64,000 bases of DNA from Nocardioides zhouii (GTDB lineage: Bacteria > Actinomycetota > Actinomycetes > Propionibacteriales > Nocardioidaceae): contig NZ_SDWV01000025.1 in NCBI RefSeq assembly GCF_004137345.1, positions 1 through 64,000 on the forward strand, in the 5' to 3' direction. Below the pieces are notes generated by a model. It did not search any database and was not told the origin of the DNA. It saw only the letters and a program-made list of their open reading frames with translations. Each line of letters begins with the position of its first letter. Position 1 is the stretch's first letter. A program made the translations under genes and the position numbers. Positions 4,950 through 10,213 of the stretch are shown here, one piece after another.

Positions 4950-5022
4950 CGCGCCTGTAGGGATTCGAACCCCAAACCTTCTGATCCGTAGTCAGATGCT
5001 CTATCCGTTGAGCTACAGGCGC
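4950..5022 (-). tRNA. tRNA-Arg (anticodon ACG)
   Basis: A 73-base cloverleaf read on the minus strand. The acceptor stem gcgcctg/caggcgc is perfect, the D-arm is present, the anticodon stem tctga/tcaga encloses the loop CTACGGA, and the T-arm contains ggttcgaatcc. Anticodon ACG reads CGN arginine codons after A-to-I editing. CCA is not encoded. The gene's 3' end points to the lower-GC block at 1-4.55 kb. Confidence 0.95.
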
Positions 5023-5198
5023 TCGTCGCCCGCACTGCGTACGCACCGCGAGGACTCACCGAGGATAGCCGACCGGCTCGGGGCGGACGAAATCAGGACC
5101 ACCCCCGAGGCCGGGTCGCACGGGCTGGGACGTGCCCTAGGGTGCCTAGCACCCGCACACGCGACGGCCCGGGTCGTCGCACGATGAGAGGTAGCGCG

Positions 5199-7037
5199 AT
5201 GGCAGATCTCGAGGCCGCCCTGGACGACGCCGGGCTGACCAATCCCCAGGTCCGTGAGTTCGTGAAGGAGTACGCCGAGCTCACCGGCGCCGAGCGCATC
5301 GAGGTGGTCAACGCCTCCGACGACGCGCGCCTGCTCGAGGAGGCCGTGGCCGCCGGCGAGCTGTCGATGGCGGGGGAGGGGCGCTACTACTCCCGCAGCT
5401 ACTACAAGGACACCGCCCGCTCCGAGGAGCGCACGATCGTCGCGACGAACGACGAGAAGGACAAGGGCGTCTACAACAACTGGCGGCCGGCCTCGGAGAT
5501 GAAGCCGATGCTCCACGACCGGATGCGCGGCGCATCGGTGGGCAAGACGATGTACGTCATCCCCTACCTGATGTCCCCCGCCGGCAACGCTCTCGCGCCG
5601 TGGGCCGCCGGCGTCGAGCTGACCGACACCCGCACGGTCGTGCTCCACATGATCCGGATGGCCCGCGTCGGCGTGCAGTACGTCAACGACCTCGAGGACC
5701 CGGACTCCTTCGTCCGCGCGGTCCACGTCACCGGCGACCTGGAGAACCTCGGCCAGGGCACGGCCGACGACCAGCGCTACTTCGTGACCGTCGCCGACGA
5801 GCGCACGATCCTGCACTTCGGCTCGTCCTACGGCGGCAACGCGCTGCTCGGCAAGATCGCGCACGGCCTGCGGCAGGGGGCGTACGACGGCTGGGCGAGC
5901 AAGAAGTTCCTCGCCGAGCAGTACATGCTCATCGGCATCCACGACAAGGAGACGGGGAAGACCTACCACGTCTGCGGCGGCTTCCCGAGTGCCTCGGGCA
6001 AGACCAACCTGGCGATGATGGCGGCCCCCGACGCGCTGGGCGATCGCTACCACGTCTCGTTCTACGGCGACGACATCGCGTGGCTGTGGGTCGACGAGGA
6101 GTCGGGCCGCCTGATGGGGATGAACCCAGAGTACGGCGTCTTCGGTGTCGCCAAGGACACCAACGAGAAGACCAACCCCAACGCACTCGCGTCCATCGAC
6201 GAGGGCACGAAGGCGATCTTCACCAATGTCTCCCACAACCCGACCACGGGTGAGGTGTGGTGGGAGGGCAAGACCAAGAAGCCGCCGAAGAAGGTGCACG
6301 GCTGGCTCGACTGGATGGGCTCGCCGCTGGCCGACCGCAAGAGCGACGACACGGCGGCGTGGTCCCACCCCAACAGCCGCTTCACCACGACCCTCGACAA
6401 CGTCCCCAACATCGCGCCCGACTACGACGAGCCGATGGGTGTGCCGATCGACGCGATCATCTTCGGCGGGCGTACGAGCGACCGTGAGCCGTTGATCCGC
6501 GCGATCACCGACCTGGCCGAGGGCGTGTACGACGGGCTGACGCTCGGCGCGGAGGCCACCTTCGCCGCCGAGGGCGTCGACGGCCAGCTGCGCTACGACC
6601 CGATGTCCAACCGGCCGTTCATGGCCTACGGCGAGGGCGACTACGCCCGCCACTACCTCGACATCGTCGGGGCAGCGTCGGAGCAGCCGATCTTCGCGCA
6701 CGTCAACTGGTTCCAGAAGGACCCCGACGACGGCCACTTCCTCTGGCCCGGATACCGCGACAACCTCCGCCCGTTGCTGTGGCTGCTCCAGCTCAAGAAC
6801 GGCGAGGTCGAGGGCCGGAAGACGGCCGTCGGCATCATCCCGACGGAGGAGGAGCTCGACCTGTCGGGCATGGACATCCCGGCCGCCGACCTCGAGCGCA
6901 TCCTCACCATCGACAAGGAGCGCTGGCAGCAGGAGATGGGCTTCCGCGAGGAGCACCTCGCCCAGTTCGACCGGATGCCCGAGGAGATCTGGGAGGCCCA
7001 CCGCCGGGTGGCCGCCGACCTCGACGCCGAGGACTGA
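5199..7037 (+). CDS. Divergent GTP-type PEP carboxykinase paralogue with altered metal site
   Basis: A 612-residue protein clearly of the GTP-PEPCK family but diverged in the active site. The kinase loop is FPSASGKTN, with Ser266 where the family has its hyper-reactive Cys. The motif LLGKIAH has Lys219 but Ile220 where the metal-binding Lys is expected. The metal-binding His after LAE is replaced by Gln241/Tyr242. The aspartates GDD (290-292), the P-loop Lys268/Thr269, and two of three guanine-stacking phenylalanines (F505, F514; the third is Tyr519) remain. The start is the ATG at 5199, preceded by GAGAGG at 7-base spacing. It lies directly upstream of a canonical PEPCK. It may be a PEPCK with changed kinetics, a related kinase or decarboxylase, or a regulatory pseudo-enzyme. 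Numbering of family residues follows human PCK1 (K244, H264, C288). Confidence 0.8.
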   Translation: MADLEAALDDAGLTNPQVREFVKEYAELTGAERIEVVNASDDARLLEEAVAAGELSMAGEGRYYSRSYYKDTARSEERTIVATNDEKDKGVYNNWRPASEMKPMLHDRMRGASVGKTMYVIPYLMSPAGNALAPWAAGVELTDTRTVVLHMIRMARVGVQYVNDLEDPDSFVRAVHVTGDLENLGQGTADDQRYFVTVADERTILHFGSSYGGNALLGKIAHGLRQGAYDGWASKKFLAEQYMLIGIHDKETGKTYHVCGGFPSASGKTNLAMMAAPDALGDRYHVSFYGDDIAWLWVDEESGRLMGMNPEYGVFGVAKDTNEKTNPNALASIDEGTKAIFTNVSHNPTTGEVWWEGKTKKPPKKVHGWLDWMGSPLADRKSDDTAAWSHPNSRFTTTLDNVPNIAPDYDEPMGVPIDAIIFGGRTSDREPLIRAITDLAEGVYDGLTLGAEATFAAEGVDGQLRYDPMSNRPFMAYGEGDYARHYLDIVGAASEQPIFAHVNWFQKDPDDGHFLWPGYRDNLRPLLWLLQLKNGEVEGRKTAVGIIPTEEELDLSGMDIPAADLERILTIDKERWQQEMGFREEHLAQFDRMPEEIWEAHRRVAADLDAED

Positions 7038-7214
7038 GCCGACTCCGGCTTCCGCCGAAATGACGCGGAAGTGCCGTCGCGAACCCGAGCGAGATCCAGG
7101 TCACAACTCTTAGACCGATCCAATATGTGCGCGCATTCACAAGCACTAGCGTCCCGGAAAAGTCGCCGACAACGAGGCCGCGCGAACCGCGACGAACGCT
7201 GAAGGAACTCCGGG

Positions 7215-9074
7215 ATGACCGCAACGACCGACCACCTGACCGCCACGACGACACACGAGGGCATCGCCGCATGGGTCGCCGAGGTCGCCGAGCTCACCCA
7301 GCCCGACCGCATCCACTGGTGCACCGGGTCCGACGAGGAGTGGGCCGAGCTCACCGCCTCCCTCGAGGCGACGGGCACGTTCACCCGCCTCAACCCCGAC
7401 GTGATGCCCAACTCGTTCCACGCGGCCTCCGACCCCACCGACGTGGCGCGCGTCGAGGACCGTACGTACATCTGCTCCGTCGCCGAGCGCGACGCCGGCC
7501 CCACCAACAACTGGATGGAGCCGGAGCAGATGAAGGACCTCATGCGCGGGCTCTACGCCGGCTGCATGAAGGGCCGCACGATGTACGTCATCCCCTTCGT
7601 GATGGGCCACGTCGACGCCGAGAAGCCGATGTTCGGCATCGAGGTCACCGACTCGGCGTACGTCACCGTGTCCATGCGCGTCATGGCCCGGATGGGCACC
7701 GACGTGCTGACCCGCATCGAGGAGCTCGCCGCTGCCGGCGAGGACCCGCAGTGGGTGCCGGCGCTGCACTCGGTCGGCATGCCGCTCGAGCCCGGCCAGG
7801 ACGACGTCGCGTGGCCGTGCAACGACACCAAGTACATCGTGCAGTTCCCCGAGGAGCGGATGATCTGGAGCTTCGGCTCCGGCTACGGCGGCAACGCCCT
7901 GCTCGGCAAGAAGTGCTACGCGCTGCGCATCGCCTCGGTCATGGCGCGCGACGAGGGCTGGCTGGCCGAGCACATGCTCATCCTCAAGCTCACCTCGCCG
8001 CAGGGCGTGACCAAGTACGTCGCCGCGGCCTTCCCGAGCGCGTGCGGCAAGACCAACCTGGCGATGCTCAAGCCGACCGTCCCGGGCTGGAAGGTCGAGG
8101 CGATCGGCGACGACATCGCCTGGATGCGGATCGGCGAGGACGGGCGCCTGTGGGCGGTCAACCCCGAGTTCGGCTTCTTCGGCGTCGCGCCCGGCACCAA
8201 CGAGCACACCAACCCGCACGCGATGGAGACCATCCGCAAGGGCAACTCGGTCTTCACCAACGTCGCGCTCACCCCCGACGGCAACGTGTGGTGGGAGGGC
8301 CTGGAGAACACGCCCGCCGAGGCCACCAGCTGGAAGGGCGAGCGCTGGACGCCGGAGATCGCGGCGGAGACGGGCGAGCTGTCCAGCCACGCCAACAGCC
8401 GCTACTGCACCCCGATCAAGCAGTGCTCGATCCTCGCCGACGAGTACGACGACCCGCGCGGCGTGCCGATCGACGCGATCCTCTTCGGTGGCCGTCGCAA
8501 GACGACGATCCCGCTGGTGACCGAGGCCCGCGACTGGAACCACGGCACCTTCATGGGCGCCACGCTCTCCTCGGAGACCACGGCCGCCGCGGTCGGCGCC
8601 GTGGGCGTCGTACGCCGTGACCCGATGGCGATGCTGCCCTTCATCGGCTACAACGCCGGCGACTACTTCAGCCACTGGGTCGGCATCGGCAAGGACAACG
8701 ACGCGGCCAAGCTGCCGAAGATGTTCTACGTTAACTGGTTCCGCCGTGCCAAGCTCGATGACGGCCGTGACGGCGACTTCCTGTGGCCCGGCTTCGGCGA
8801 GAACAGCCGCGTCCTCAAGTGGGTCATCGAGCGCCTCGACGGCCAGGCTGCCGCGGTCGAGACCCCGATCGGCCACGTGCCGGCGCCCGGCTCGCTCGAC
8901 CTCGACGGCCTCGACCTCACCGAGGAGCAGGTCGCCCAGGCCCTCGCTGTCGACGCCGACGAGTGGCGCGCCGAGCTGCCGCAGATCGAGGAGTGGTTCG
9001 AGAAGTTCGGCGACGACCTCCCCGCCGTGCTGTGGACCGAGCTCGACACGCTCAAGGCCCGCCTCGACGCCTGA
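7215..9074 (+). CDS. pckG: Phosphoenolpyruvate carboxykinase (GTP)
   Basis: A 619-residue canonical GTP-PEPCK, converting oxaloacetate plus GTP to PEP, CO2 and GDP in the cytoplasm (gluconeogenesis/anaplerosis). The active-site set is complete: Lys232-Lys233 in LLGKKCY, His253 in LAEHML, the kinase loop FPSACGKTN with Cys277, GDDIAWM (298-304), and the guanine-binding [11 protein letters not shown] cluster near the C-terminus. The ATG follows an AAGGA site at 8-base spacing. A 177-base gap separates it from the divergent paralogue, so it probably has its own promoter. A hairpin follows the stop. Enzyme activity is expected by family; the contrast with the upstream copy is the notable point. 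Confidence 0.95.
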
Positions 9075-9094
9075 TCCACGCACCCGTACGCCCT

Positions 9095-9130
9095 CCGACC
9101 CGTCCTTCCGCACCAGGGAGGGCGGGTCGG
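9095..9130 (+). terminator. Terminator after pckG
   Basis: An imperfect inverted repeat (ccgacccg... with ...cgggtcgg) 20 bases past the pckG stop. There is no strong T-run, so it could alternatively act only as an RNA-stabilising hairpin. Confidence 0.5.
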
Positions 9131-9208
9131 TGCGATTTCCGGCCGATCGGCCGGGTGCTGTGTGGCACGATCCTCCCACTGGGTCGGTGGGAACGCGGGA
9201 GGTGAGCC

Positions 9209-10213
9209 ATGCCCTTGGGTCAGCACGAACGCGCCCTGTTCGAGGAGCGTGCCGCTCCTCTCTACGAGGAGATCCTGGGCGCGGGCGGCATCAGCGCGTC
9301 AGACAAGCGCATCGCCCGGCGCGGCGAGCTCCACGAGGCCTTCGAGCTCCTGGTCGACGTCGGACTCGTCAACAAGAGCGACGACGAGACCCAGTGGCAT
9401 GCGGTCGATCCGGCCGCCGTCCAGGCGCAGGTCGTGGCACCGCTCGGCCAGCAGGGTGCGGAGCTGATCGCCGAGTCGGCCCACTGGGCCCAGGCCTTCA
9501 GCTCCCTGTCGCACGCGTGGCGCCGTTCGCCGAGTGCTGTGGGTGGGCCGTTCGCCGAGATTCGCGGCGTCACCACGATCCGCACCGTCCTCCTGTCGAT
9601 GGTCGCCGACTCCGAGGACGAGATCCTCACGGCCCAGCCGCAGGACAGGCGCGGGGTCAAGCAGCTCTCGGAGGTGACCGCGCGAGAGATCTCGCTGCTC
9701 GAGCGCGGCGTCAAGATGCGCACGCTCTACCAGCACGCCGCCCGTCGCGGCGCTGACACCCGCAAGTACGTCGCCGCGGTCACGGCCGCCGGCGCCGAGG
9801 TTCGGACCCTGGACGAGTTCTTCAACCGCCTCATCGTCATCGACCGCCGGATCGCGATCATCCCCAGCCACGAGGGTCTGAATGCGGCCATGGTGATCAG
9901 CGACCGGTCGATGGTGGGCTACCTCGTCGACATGTTCGAGCGGCACTGGGAGCGCGCCCGGCCGTTCAGCAGCAGCGAGAGCTCGCTGATGCGGGACATC
10001 GCGACCGAGCAACGCGCGATGACGATCCGGATGCTGCTCGAGGGCCGGGCCGACCCGGCCGGTGCGAAGCGCCTGGGCGTCAGCCCCCGGACGTACGCCG
10101 GCTACGTGGCCGACCTGAAGAACGAGTTCGAGGTCGAGACGCGCTTCCAGCTCGGCTACGAGATGGGCAAGCGCGGCATCTCGGGACGCGAGATGGACGA
10201 GCCGACGGCCTGA
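9209..10213 (+). CDS. LuxR-type regulator with TrmB/PLD-like sensor region
   Basis: A 334-residue transcription factor. The N-terminal third looks like a winged-helix/TrmB-like module. The middle carries a phospholipase-D-like effector region (the stretch around RLIVIDRRIAIIP). The last ~65 residues form a LuxR-type helix-turn-helix (RLGVSPRTYAGYVADL). The ATG follows GGGAGGTGAGCC. No transmembrane segment is seen, so it is cytoplasmic. Its neighbour, read towards it, is a tiny exported-peptide gene (10402-10524), which makes a peptide-responsive switch a testable idea. It also lies just downstream of pckG and could regulate that instead. Ligand and targets are unknown. Confidence 0.82.
   Translation: MPLGQHERALFEERAAPLYEEILGAGGISASDKRIARRGELHEAFELLVDVGLVNKSDDETQWHAVDPAAVQAQVVAPLGQQGAELIAESAHWAQAFSSLSHAWRRSPSAVGGPFAEIRGVTTIRTVLLSMVADSEDEILTAQPQDRRGVKQLSEVTAREISLLERGVKMRTLYQHAARRGADTRKYVAAVTAAGAEVRTLDEFFNRLIVIDRRIAIIPSHEGLNAAMVISDRSMVGYLVDMFERHWERARPFSSSESSLMRDIATEQRAMTIRMLLEGRADPAGAKRLGVSPRTYAGYVADLKNEFEVETRFQLGYEMGKRGISGREMDEPTA

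Follow-up and report, generated by a model that had tools for sequence, protein, structure and literature searches.

A second form of PEP carboxykinase with an altered metal site seems to replace the usual enzyme in many actinobacteria

RESULTS

Two PEPCK genes in the window

The window analysed here is a stretch of 64,000 nucleotides from Nocardioides zhouii (RefSeq assembly GCF_004137345.1, contig NZ_SDWV01000025.1, positions 1 to 64,000 of the forward strand). It contains two PEP carboxykinase (PEPCK) genes, and the gene of a variant PEPCK lies just upstream of the canonical pckG (Table 1). The variant frame starts with ATG at 5199, ends with the stop codon at 7037 and has zero internal stops. 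The two proteins share 37% identity over 622 columns (BLASTP), and PF00821 matches nothing else in the 4.6-Mb source genome. With PF00821, PF17297 and the NCBIfam GTP-PEPCK model NF003253, the variant scores 401.6, 195 and 624.5 bits, all above the respective cut-offs of 23.8, 23.8 and 504; compared to the 624 bits of the variant, the NF003253 score of the canonical neighbour (951 bits) is much higher. PF00821 and PF17297 were the only families listed for the variant by hmmscan of Pfam (E up to 0.001), and PF01293, the ATP-PEPCK family, gave no match. All 23 PDB sequences that match the variant are named PEPCK, either of GTP type or unspecified.

Two long open frames run antisense over both PEPCK genes on the minus strand, at 7146-9179 (677 aa) and 5013-7001 (662 aa). 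They are probably not genes, because such frames are expected from high-GC codon use.

Table 1. Features of the PEPCK locus (window coordinates)
Feature	Position	Strand	Details
Variant PEPCK gene, GTP-PEPCK homologue with altered M1 site	5199..7037	+	612 aa
PEPCK N-terminal domain PF17297 (residues 20-231)	5256..5891	+	E 1.7e-57
His206 codon	5814..5816	+	His in 41/41 variant rows; Ser in 33/33 canonical and 10/10 divergent rows
Ile220 codon, in place of the M1 metal-ligand Lys (Mtb 229 by count)	5856..5858	+	Alignment
PEPCK_GTP P-loop domain PF00821 (residues 237-604)	5907..7010	+	Profile match
Gln241 codon, in place of the M1 metal-ligand His (Mtb 249)	5919..5921	+	Alignment
P-loop PSASGKTNLA, Ser266 at the Cys position	5985..6014	+	Alignment
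Asp291-Asp292 (GDD); Asp292 aligned to the third M1 ligand, kept	6069..6074	+	Alignment
Lys319 codon	6153..6155	+	Lys in 80/81 (one Arg) and in 41/41 variant rows; Pro in 33/33 canonical rows
Guanine-pocket segment W504-N522, kept	6708..6764	+	Alignment
Canonical GTP-PEPCK (pckG); K-K, His and Cys intact	7215..9074	+	Profile and alignment
Downstream gene following canonical pckG; DUF7436 below cut-off	9209..10213	+

Two M1 ligands are replaced in every variant sequence

In PMC4370629, metal site 1 (M1) of Mtb PEPCK is assigned by structural alignment to Asp295, a Lys and His249, and site 2 to Thr276 and Asp295; the crystal has a single Mn2+, bound in site 2. The Lys is printed there as 'Lys249', which must be a misprint for Lys229 because of the residue count along the Mtb sequence. 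In the variant, Ile220 replaces the second Lys of the GKK motif, Gln241 replaces the His of LAEH and Ser266 replaces the P-loop Cys. The first two positions correspond to Lys244 and His264 of the rat enzyme. The M1 Lys and His are common to the GTP- and ATP-PEPCKs compared here and are regarded as metal ligands; yeast ATP-PEPCK mutants in such ligands are reportedly severely impaired, which, with two of the three M1 ligands gone, speaks against an active variant.

Ile220, Gln241 and Ser266 are invariant in all 81 variant rows of our alignment, which come from 80 homologous loci and the window's own gene, and one block of 15 residues is likewise invariant. The alignment thus agrees with a sequence-only reading of this DNA, which had noted the replacement of the Lys by Ile220 and of the Cys by Ser266. 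For the His, that reading had offered both Gln241 and Tyr242. Gln241 stands, since phmmer pairs it without a gap with the LAEH His of the Mtb enzyme and it never varies; Tyr242 is the less likely occupant, because position 242 is Tyr in 58 and Phe in 23 of the 81 rows. Judged from the sequences, neither alignment would bring back a His.

At the same loci, each of the 29 canonical copies has retained Lys, His and Cys. In a wider alignment, Ile, Gln and Ser occur in 41/41 variant rows (36 distinct), and Lys and His in all 33 canonical and all 10 divergent actinobacterial rows. E. coli ATP-PEPCK has Lys213, His232 and Asp269, with Thr at the P-loop Cys position. A plasmid search returned 59 records, all under 60% identity; since variant orthologues were seen at 65% or above, none of the 59 is as close as they are. 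Five of these records, from Bacillota and Alphaproteobacteria, were read, and their GTP-PEPCKs also have Lys, His and Cys (5/5).

The P-loop Cys was considered as the key feature and rejected, as it is Ser or Thr in 2/33 canonical rows. By this comparison the Cys-to-Ser change alone looks unremarkable, and a Cys-to-Ser mutant of Mtb PEPCK has been crystallised, according to the title of entry 5i67.

Outside the two ligand positions, much of the active site is kept. R74, E76, Y211, K268, T269, D291, D292, N392, R394 and R425 are identical in 41/41 variant rows, and W504, F505, F514, Y519 and N522 of the guanine pocket are present. The P-loop GKT, GDD and the guanine pocket were seen in the variant alignment; the earlier reading had stated this of GKT, GDD and most of the pocket. 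Its suggestion of another phosphoryl donor finds no support: the pocket for guanine is intact apart from a single Phe-to-Tyr change, which the Polaromonas GTP-PEPCK has too (PMC12529880).

Variant and canonical proteins are fixed differently in 54 alignment columns (41 substitutions and 13 gap columns); Tyr519 (78/81) and Arg520 (79/81) are also consistent differences from the canonical form. Together with the two changed M1 ligands, these columns would fit a neofunctionalised carboxykinase or kinase that acts on a different oxoacid or acceptor and is retained, with or without pckG, for some separate reason, with the complementary distribution described below reflecting lineage effects. However, the substrate residues R74, Y211, N392 and R394 are unchanged in 41/41 rows, and on the whole we consider such a change of function unlikely.

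One divergent PEPCK_GTP-like clade (L145-L154), from other Actinomycetota classes (families f12, f28, f49 and f72), shows 24-31% identity to the window copies. Lys, His and Asp of the metal site are conserved in it, as is the Cys, but the guanine pocket is absent: Asn is replaced by Lys, Trp by Tyr and Phe by Met, Ile or Lys. Judging from these residues, its nucleotide may differ.

Clade, selection and predicted structure

The sequence-only reading had proposed to check whether the Ser/Ile form makes its own clade. In a tree of 120 rows (110 distinct), built by a quick method with no bootstrap, 68 of 68 variant rows fall on one branch with SH-aLRT 100. The stem branch of this clade is long, with 3.68 changes per column, as would be expected under neofunctionalisation. 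Variant orthologues occur in several actinobacterial families. Nine pairs of each form gave dN/dS values of 0.12-0.34 (variant) and 0.14-0.34 (canonical), by a simple counting method in which synonymous sites are compressed by high GC. The variant is not a degenerate copy.

With a pLDDT of 86.3 and a pTM of 0.89, the variant's AF2 model is good as a whole; it is weak at residues 211-220 (mean pLDDT 54) and at the lid (453-461). Its best fold match is 2zci from C. glutamicum (Z 44.0, rmsd 2.0, 565 residues), and Mtb PEPCK (4wou) matches with Z 43.7 and rmsd 2.2 over 575 residues. This model and the residue alignment bear out the earlier proposal of an intact fold and nucleotide site with a remodelled metal site. 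Ile220 lies within a predicted helix (211-234), and His222, at i+2, points about 200 degrees round. His222, which had been named as a ligand that might rebuild a normal site, is therefore predicted to be an unlikely substitute. The AF2 model of the canonical copy is poor (pLDDT 70). Lys319 was also considered as a possible analogue of Lys288 of E. coli, an active-site Lys of ATP-PEPCK; the profiles of the variant and E. coli Pck could not be usefully aligned.

Variant and canonical genes show a complementary distribution

We surveyed 197 genomes, which we assigned to Nocardioidaceae because the variant loci have named relatives there. Genomes were classed by their best match, variant if under 1e-200 and canonical if weaker; the class with both genes rests on match counts, and second matches were mostly counted rather than located. 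On this basis, 72 genomes have both genes, 58 only the variant, one two variants (G845), 53 only the canonical gene and 13 neither. Among the 165 genomes that are at least 90% complete and at most 5% contaminated, the corresponding numbers are 67, 51, 1, 43 and 3. With the strictest limits (completeness of 98% or more and contamination of 2% or less; 140 genomes), 63 genomes carry both, 49 only the variant (including G845), 28 only the canonical gene and none lacks both. Fisher's test gives p about 1e-6, with relatives that are not independent. Two genomes, G845 and G466, have two variant copies each; G466 shows 5% contamination.

These counts bear on two of the alternatives. The co-occurrence of both genes in 63/140 genomes would fit neofunctionalisation; that 0/140 genomes are without both counts against it. 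A catalytically dead pseudoenzyme that regulates PckG would explain the loss of two catalytic ligands and the position of the variant gene just upstream of pckG in the window. However, 49 of the 140 near-complete genomes carry the variant without pckG, and the kinase P-loop, the catalytic Lys and the substrate residues are identical in 41/41 rows. The variant-only genomes make the role of regulatory partner of pckG, which the earlier reading had entertained, unlikely; the dead regulatory copy as a whole we find hardly credible.

In wider samples, the variant was found in 3/396 genomes of a phylum sample, own genome included, and in 41/394 genomes of a class sample, of which 29 are Nocardioidaceae and 12 belong to six other families. 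With at most three candidates scored per genome, 8 of these 12 outside carriers show a single PEPCK match, candidates being incompletely scored in five of the eight and one genome being just 84% complete. A genome from another class (G156, contig C96, locus L155) has the variant, 72% identical, and no canonical copy. The sequence is nested among Nocardioidaceae in the tree, and it came there by transfer or contamination.

Apart from PEPCK itself, the gene type at 9209 forms the commonest recurring cluster, found near PEPCK genes in 36/82 loci (own genome included). Each other cluster is in at most 17 of the 82 loci, and no further widely conserved neighbour was seen among them. The neighbours were therefore rejected as a clue to an operon or pathway, there being no widely conserved partner genes; the absence of such partners beside the variant also counts against neofunctionalisation. 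In 6 of 20 variant-only loci of the window's genus (genomes G472, G577, G661, G875, G881 and G891), a gene of the 9209 type directly follows the variant, with 121-189 bases between the aligned ends; this order was not seen in the other 14 within the stretch fetched. At locus level, six named loci have this order too (L035, L037, L040, L041, L044 and L049). In the 6 of 20 variant-only loci, canonical pckG is missing from its slot, from which it would have been lost or which it would never have entered. In several Nocardioides, a cassette of genes of about 752, 477 and 93 aa lies, whole or in part, between the variant and canonical pckG (L003, L004, L005, L006, L007, L011, L013, L026 and others).

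Mapped on the best rpoB tree (80 genomes), the two single-gene states, variant-only and canonical-only, switch at least 11 times, compared to a mean of 22.9 after shuffling; 3 switches are forced by the well-supported branches alone.

Routes to PEP in variant-only genomes

We searched 48 of the 49 variant-only genomes again; G845, with its two variants, lay outside this set. None of the 48 has a canonical pckG: in every one, the canonical query matched a single place, that of the variant itself, with all first-look candidates scored. ATP-PEPCK (PF01293) was found in 0/48. PPDK_N (PF01326), which covers PPDK, PEP synthase and relatives, is present in 22 and absent from 26 of the 48. The same family occurs in 26/28 canonical-only genomes, therefore the lineages differ in more than the PEPCK gene.

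In the 26 genomes without PPDK_N, a PF00821 search at E up to 1 returned the variant and one weightless hit at 0.3. A GlpX FBPase is present in all 26. Isocitrate lyase was considered as proof of growth on acetate and set aside: it is clear in only 3/26, with weaker family hits in nine more, so the acetate argument fails for most of these genomes. Since 20 of the 26 belong to one genus (g2) and the other six to the window's genus, they are not independent. Genus g2, which neighbours A. terrae in the PEPCK tree, is probably Aeromicrobium and has 17 two-gene and two canonical-only members in the family survey.

Among the enzymes tested (canonical PckG, ATP-PEPCK and PPDK_N proteins), the variant is thus the only one that could form PEP for gluconeogenesis in the 26 genomes. 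A PPi-PEPCK, which may be present in addition, would not be revealed by a PF00821 search, because this found nothing in either of two genomes of f76, another family of the order and presumably Propionibacteriaceae. If the variant had acquired another function, the 26 genomes would be left with no tested route to PEP, which argues against neofunctionalisation.

DISCUSSION

Our analysis established a well-supported clade, the invariance of its altered residues, selection on the gene, a complementary distribution with pckG and 26 genomes with no tested alternative. We consider it likely that the variant is an active GTP-dependent PEPCK isozyme able to replace PckG, with M1 rebuilt or absent. On the evidence, a functional isozyme is a better reading than a copy that is dead or serves regulation, and the clade probably works like a PEPCK. 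From these observations we infer the activity, its direction and its nucleotide, as well as both versions of the metal site given below.

The isozyme would catalyse oxaloacetate + GTP <-> PEP + GDP + CO2 and fill the full PEPCK role alone. It would have arisen by an old split within GTP-PEPCK; it occurs in several actinobacterial families, in which the single-gene states would have alternated several times. The substrate arginines, the kinase P-loop and the guanine pocket would work as in other GTP-PEPCKs, and M1 would be rebuilt: of its ligands, Lys and His have been lost and Asp292 is retained. In one version, the M1 metal may be held by Asp292, Gln241 and water, perhaps together with a side chain that has become fixed in the variant, such as His206. 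In the other, M1 may be weak or absent, and protein charges, e.g. that of Lys319, would take over part of its role. A far-reaching form of the latter is PEPCK chemistry without the M1 manganese, in which decarboxylation and enolate phosphorylation would depend solely on the charges of Lys319, His206, Arg394 and Arg425 and on the Mg2+ bound to the nucleotide, although for many species this enzyme would be the sole PEPCK; we put it forward tentatively, as less likely than not.

The variant could also be a PEPCK specialised for anaplerotic PEP carboxylation, for another redox state, or for Fe2+, Co2+ or Zn2+. The changed residues are metal ligands and the P-loop Cys is gone, and the direction of Mtb Pck depends on the metal (PMC4370629). 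However, the 26 genomes keep FBPase and miss both ATP-PEPCK and PPDK_N, an indication that the enzyme can also run forward. We regard this specialisation as improbable; it is a version of the active isozyme rather than a full rival.

Compared to known GTP-PEPCKs (EC 4.1.1.32; Mtb Pck, 2zci, rat PCK1), the variant shares the fold along almost all of its length, the P-loop, GDD, substrate residues and guanine pocket. It differs in having Ile, Gln and Ser for Lys, His and Cys, a fixed His206, and nearly fixed Lys319, Tyr519 and Arg520 (80, 78 and 79 of 81). Because the M1 Lys and His are replaced in 81/81 rows, we file it as a separate PEPCK_GTP clade, not as canonical GTP-PEPCK. ATP-PEPCK (EC 4.1.1.49, E. 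coli pck) belongs to a related superfamily and carries out the same kind of reaction (PMC8100219); like the E. coli enzyme, the variant misses the P-loop Cys (Thr in E. coli, Ser here). Different from ATP-PEPCK, it has no PF01293 match, keeps the guanine pocket and has replaced the residues corresponding to Lys213 and His232, which E. coli retains with Asp269. PPi-PEPCK (EC 4.1.1.38; Entamoeba, Propionibacterium) makes the same net conversion and is likewise a second type beside a canonical enzyme; in that review it is described as evolutionarily unrelated to ATP/GTP-PEPCK (PMC8100219). By this description the variant is set apart from it, being a plain GTP-PEPCK homologue of 612 aa.

In the open-licence PMC literature, we recognised nothing as an Ile/Gln/Ser PEPCK variant. 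Under the NCBI model, these proteins receive the name of an enzyme with a metal site that they lack. The surprise is the loss of both Lys and His, not of the Cys, in an enzyme on which many genomes seem to rely. Many soil actinobacteria have this second PEPCK form, and in many species it seems to take the place of the usual enzyme; as a natural clade without both ligands, under purifying selection and alone in many genomes, it makes the need for M1 directly testable.
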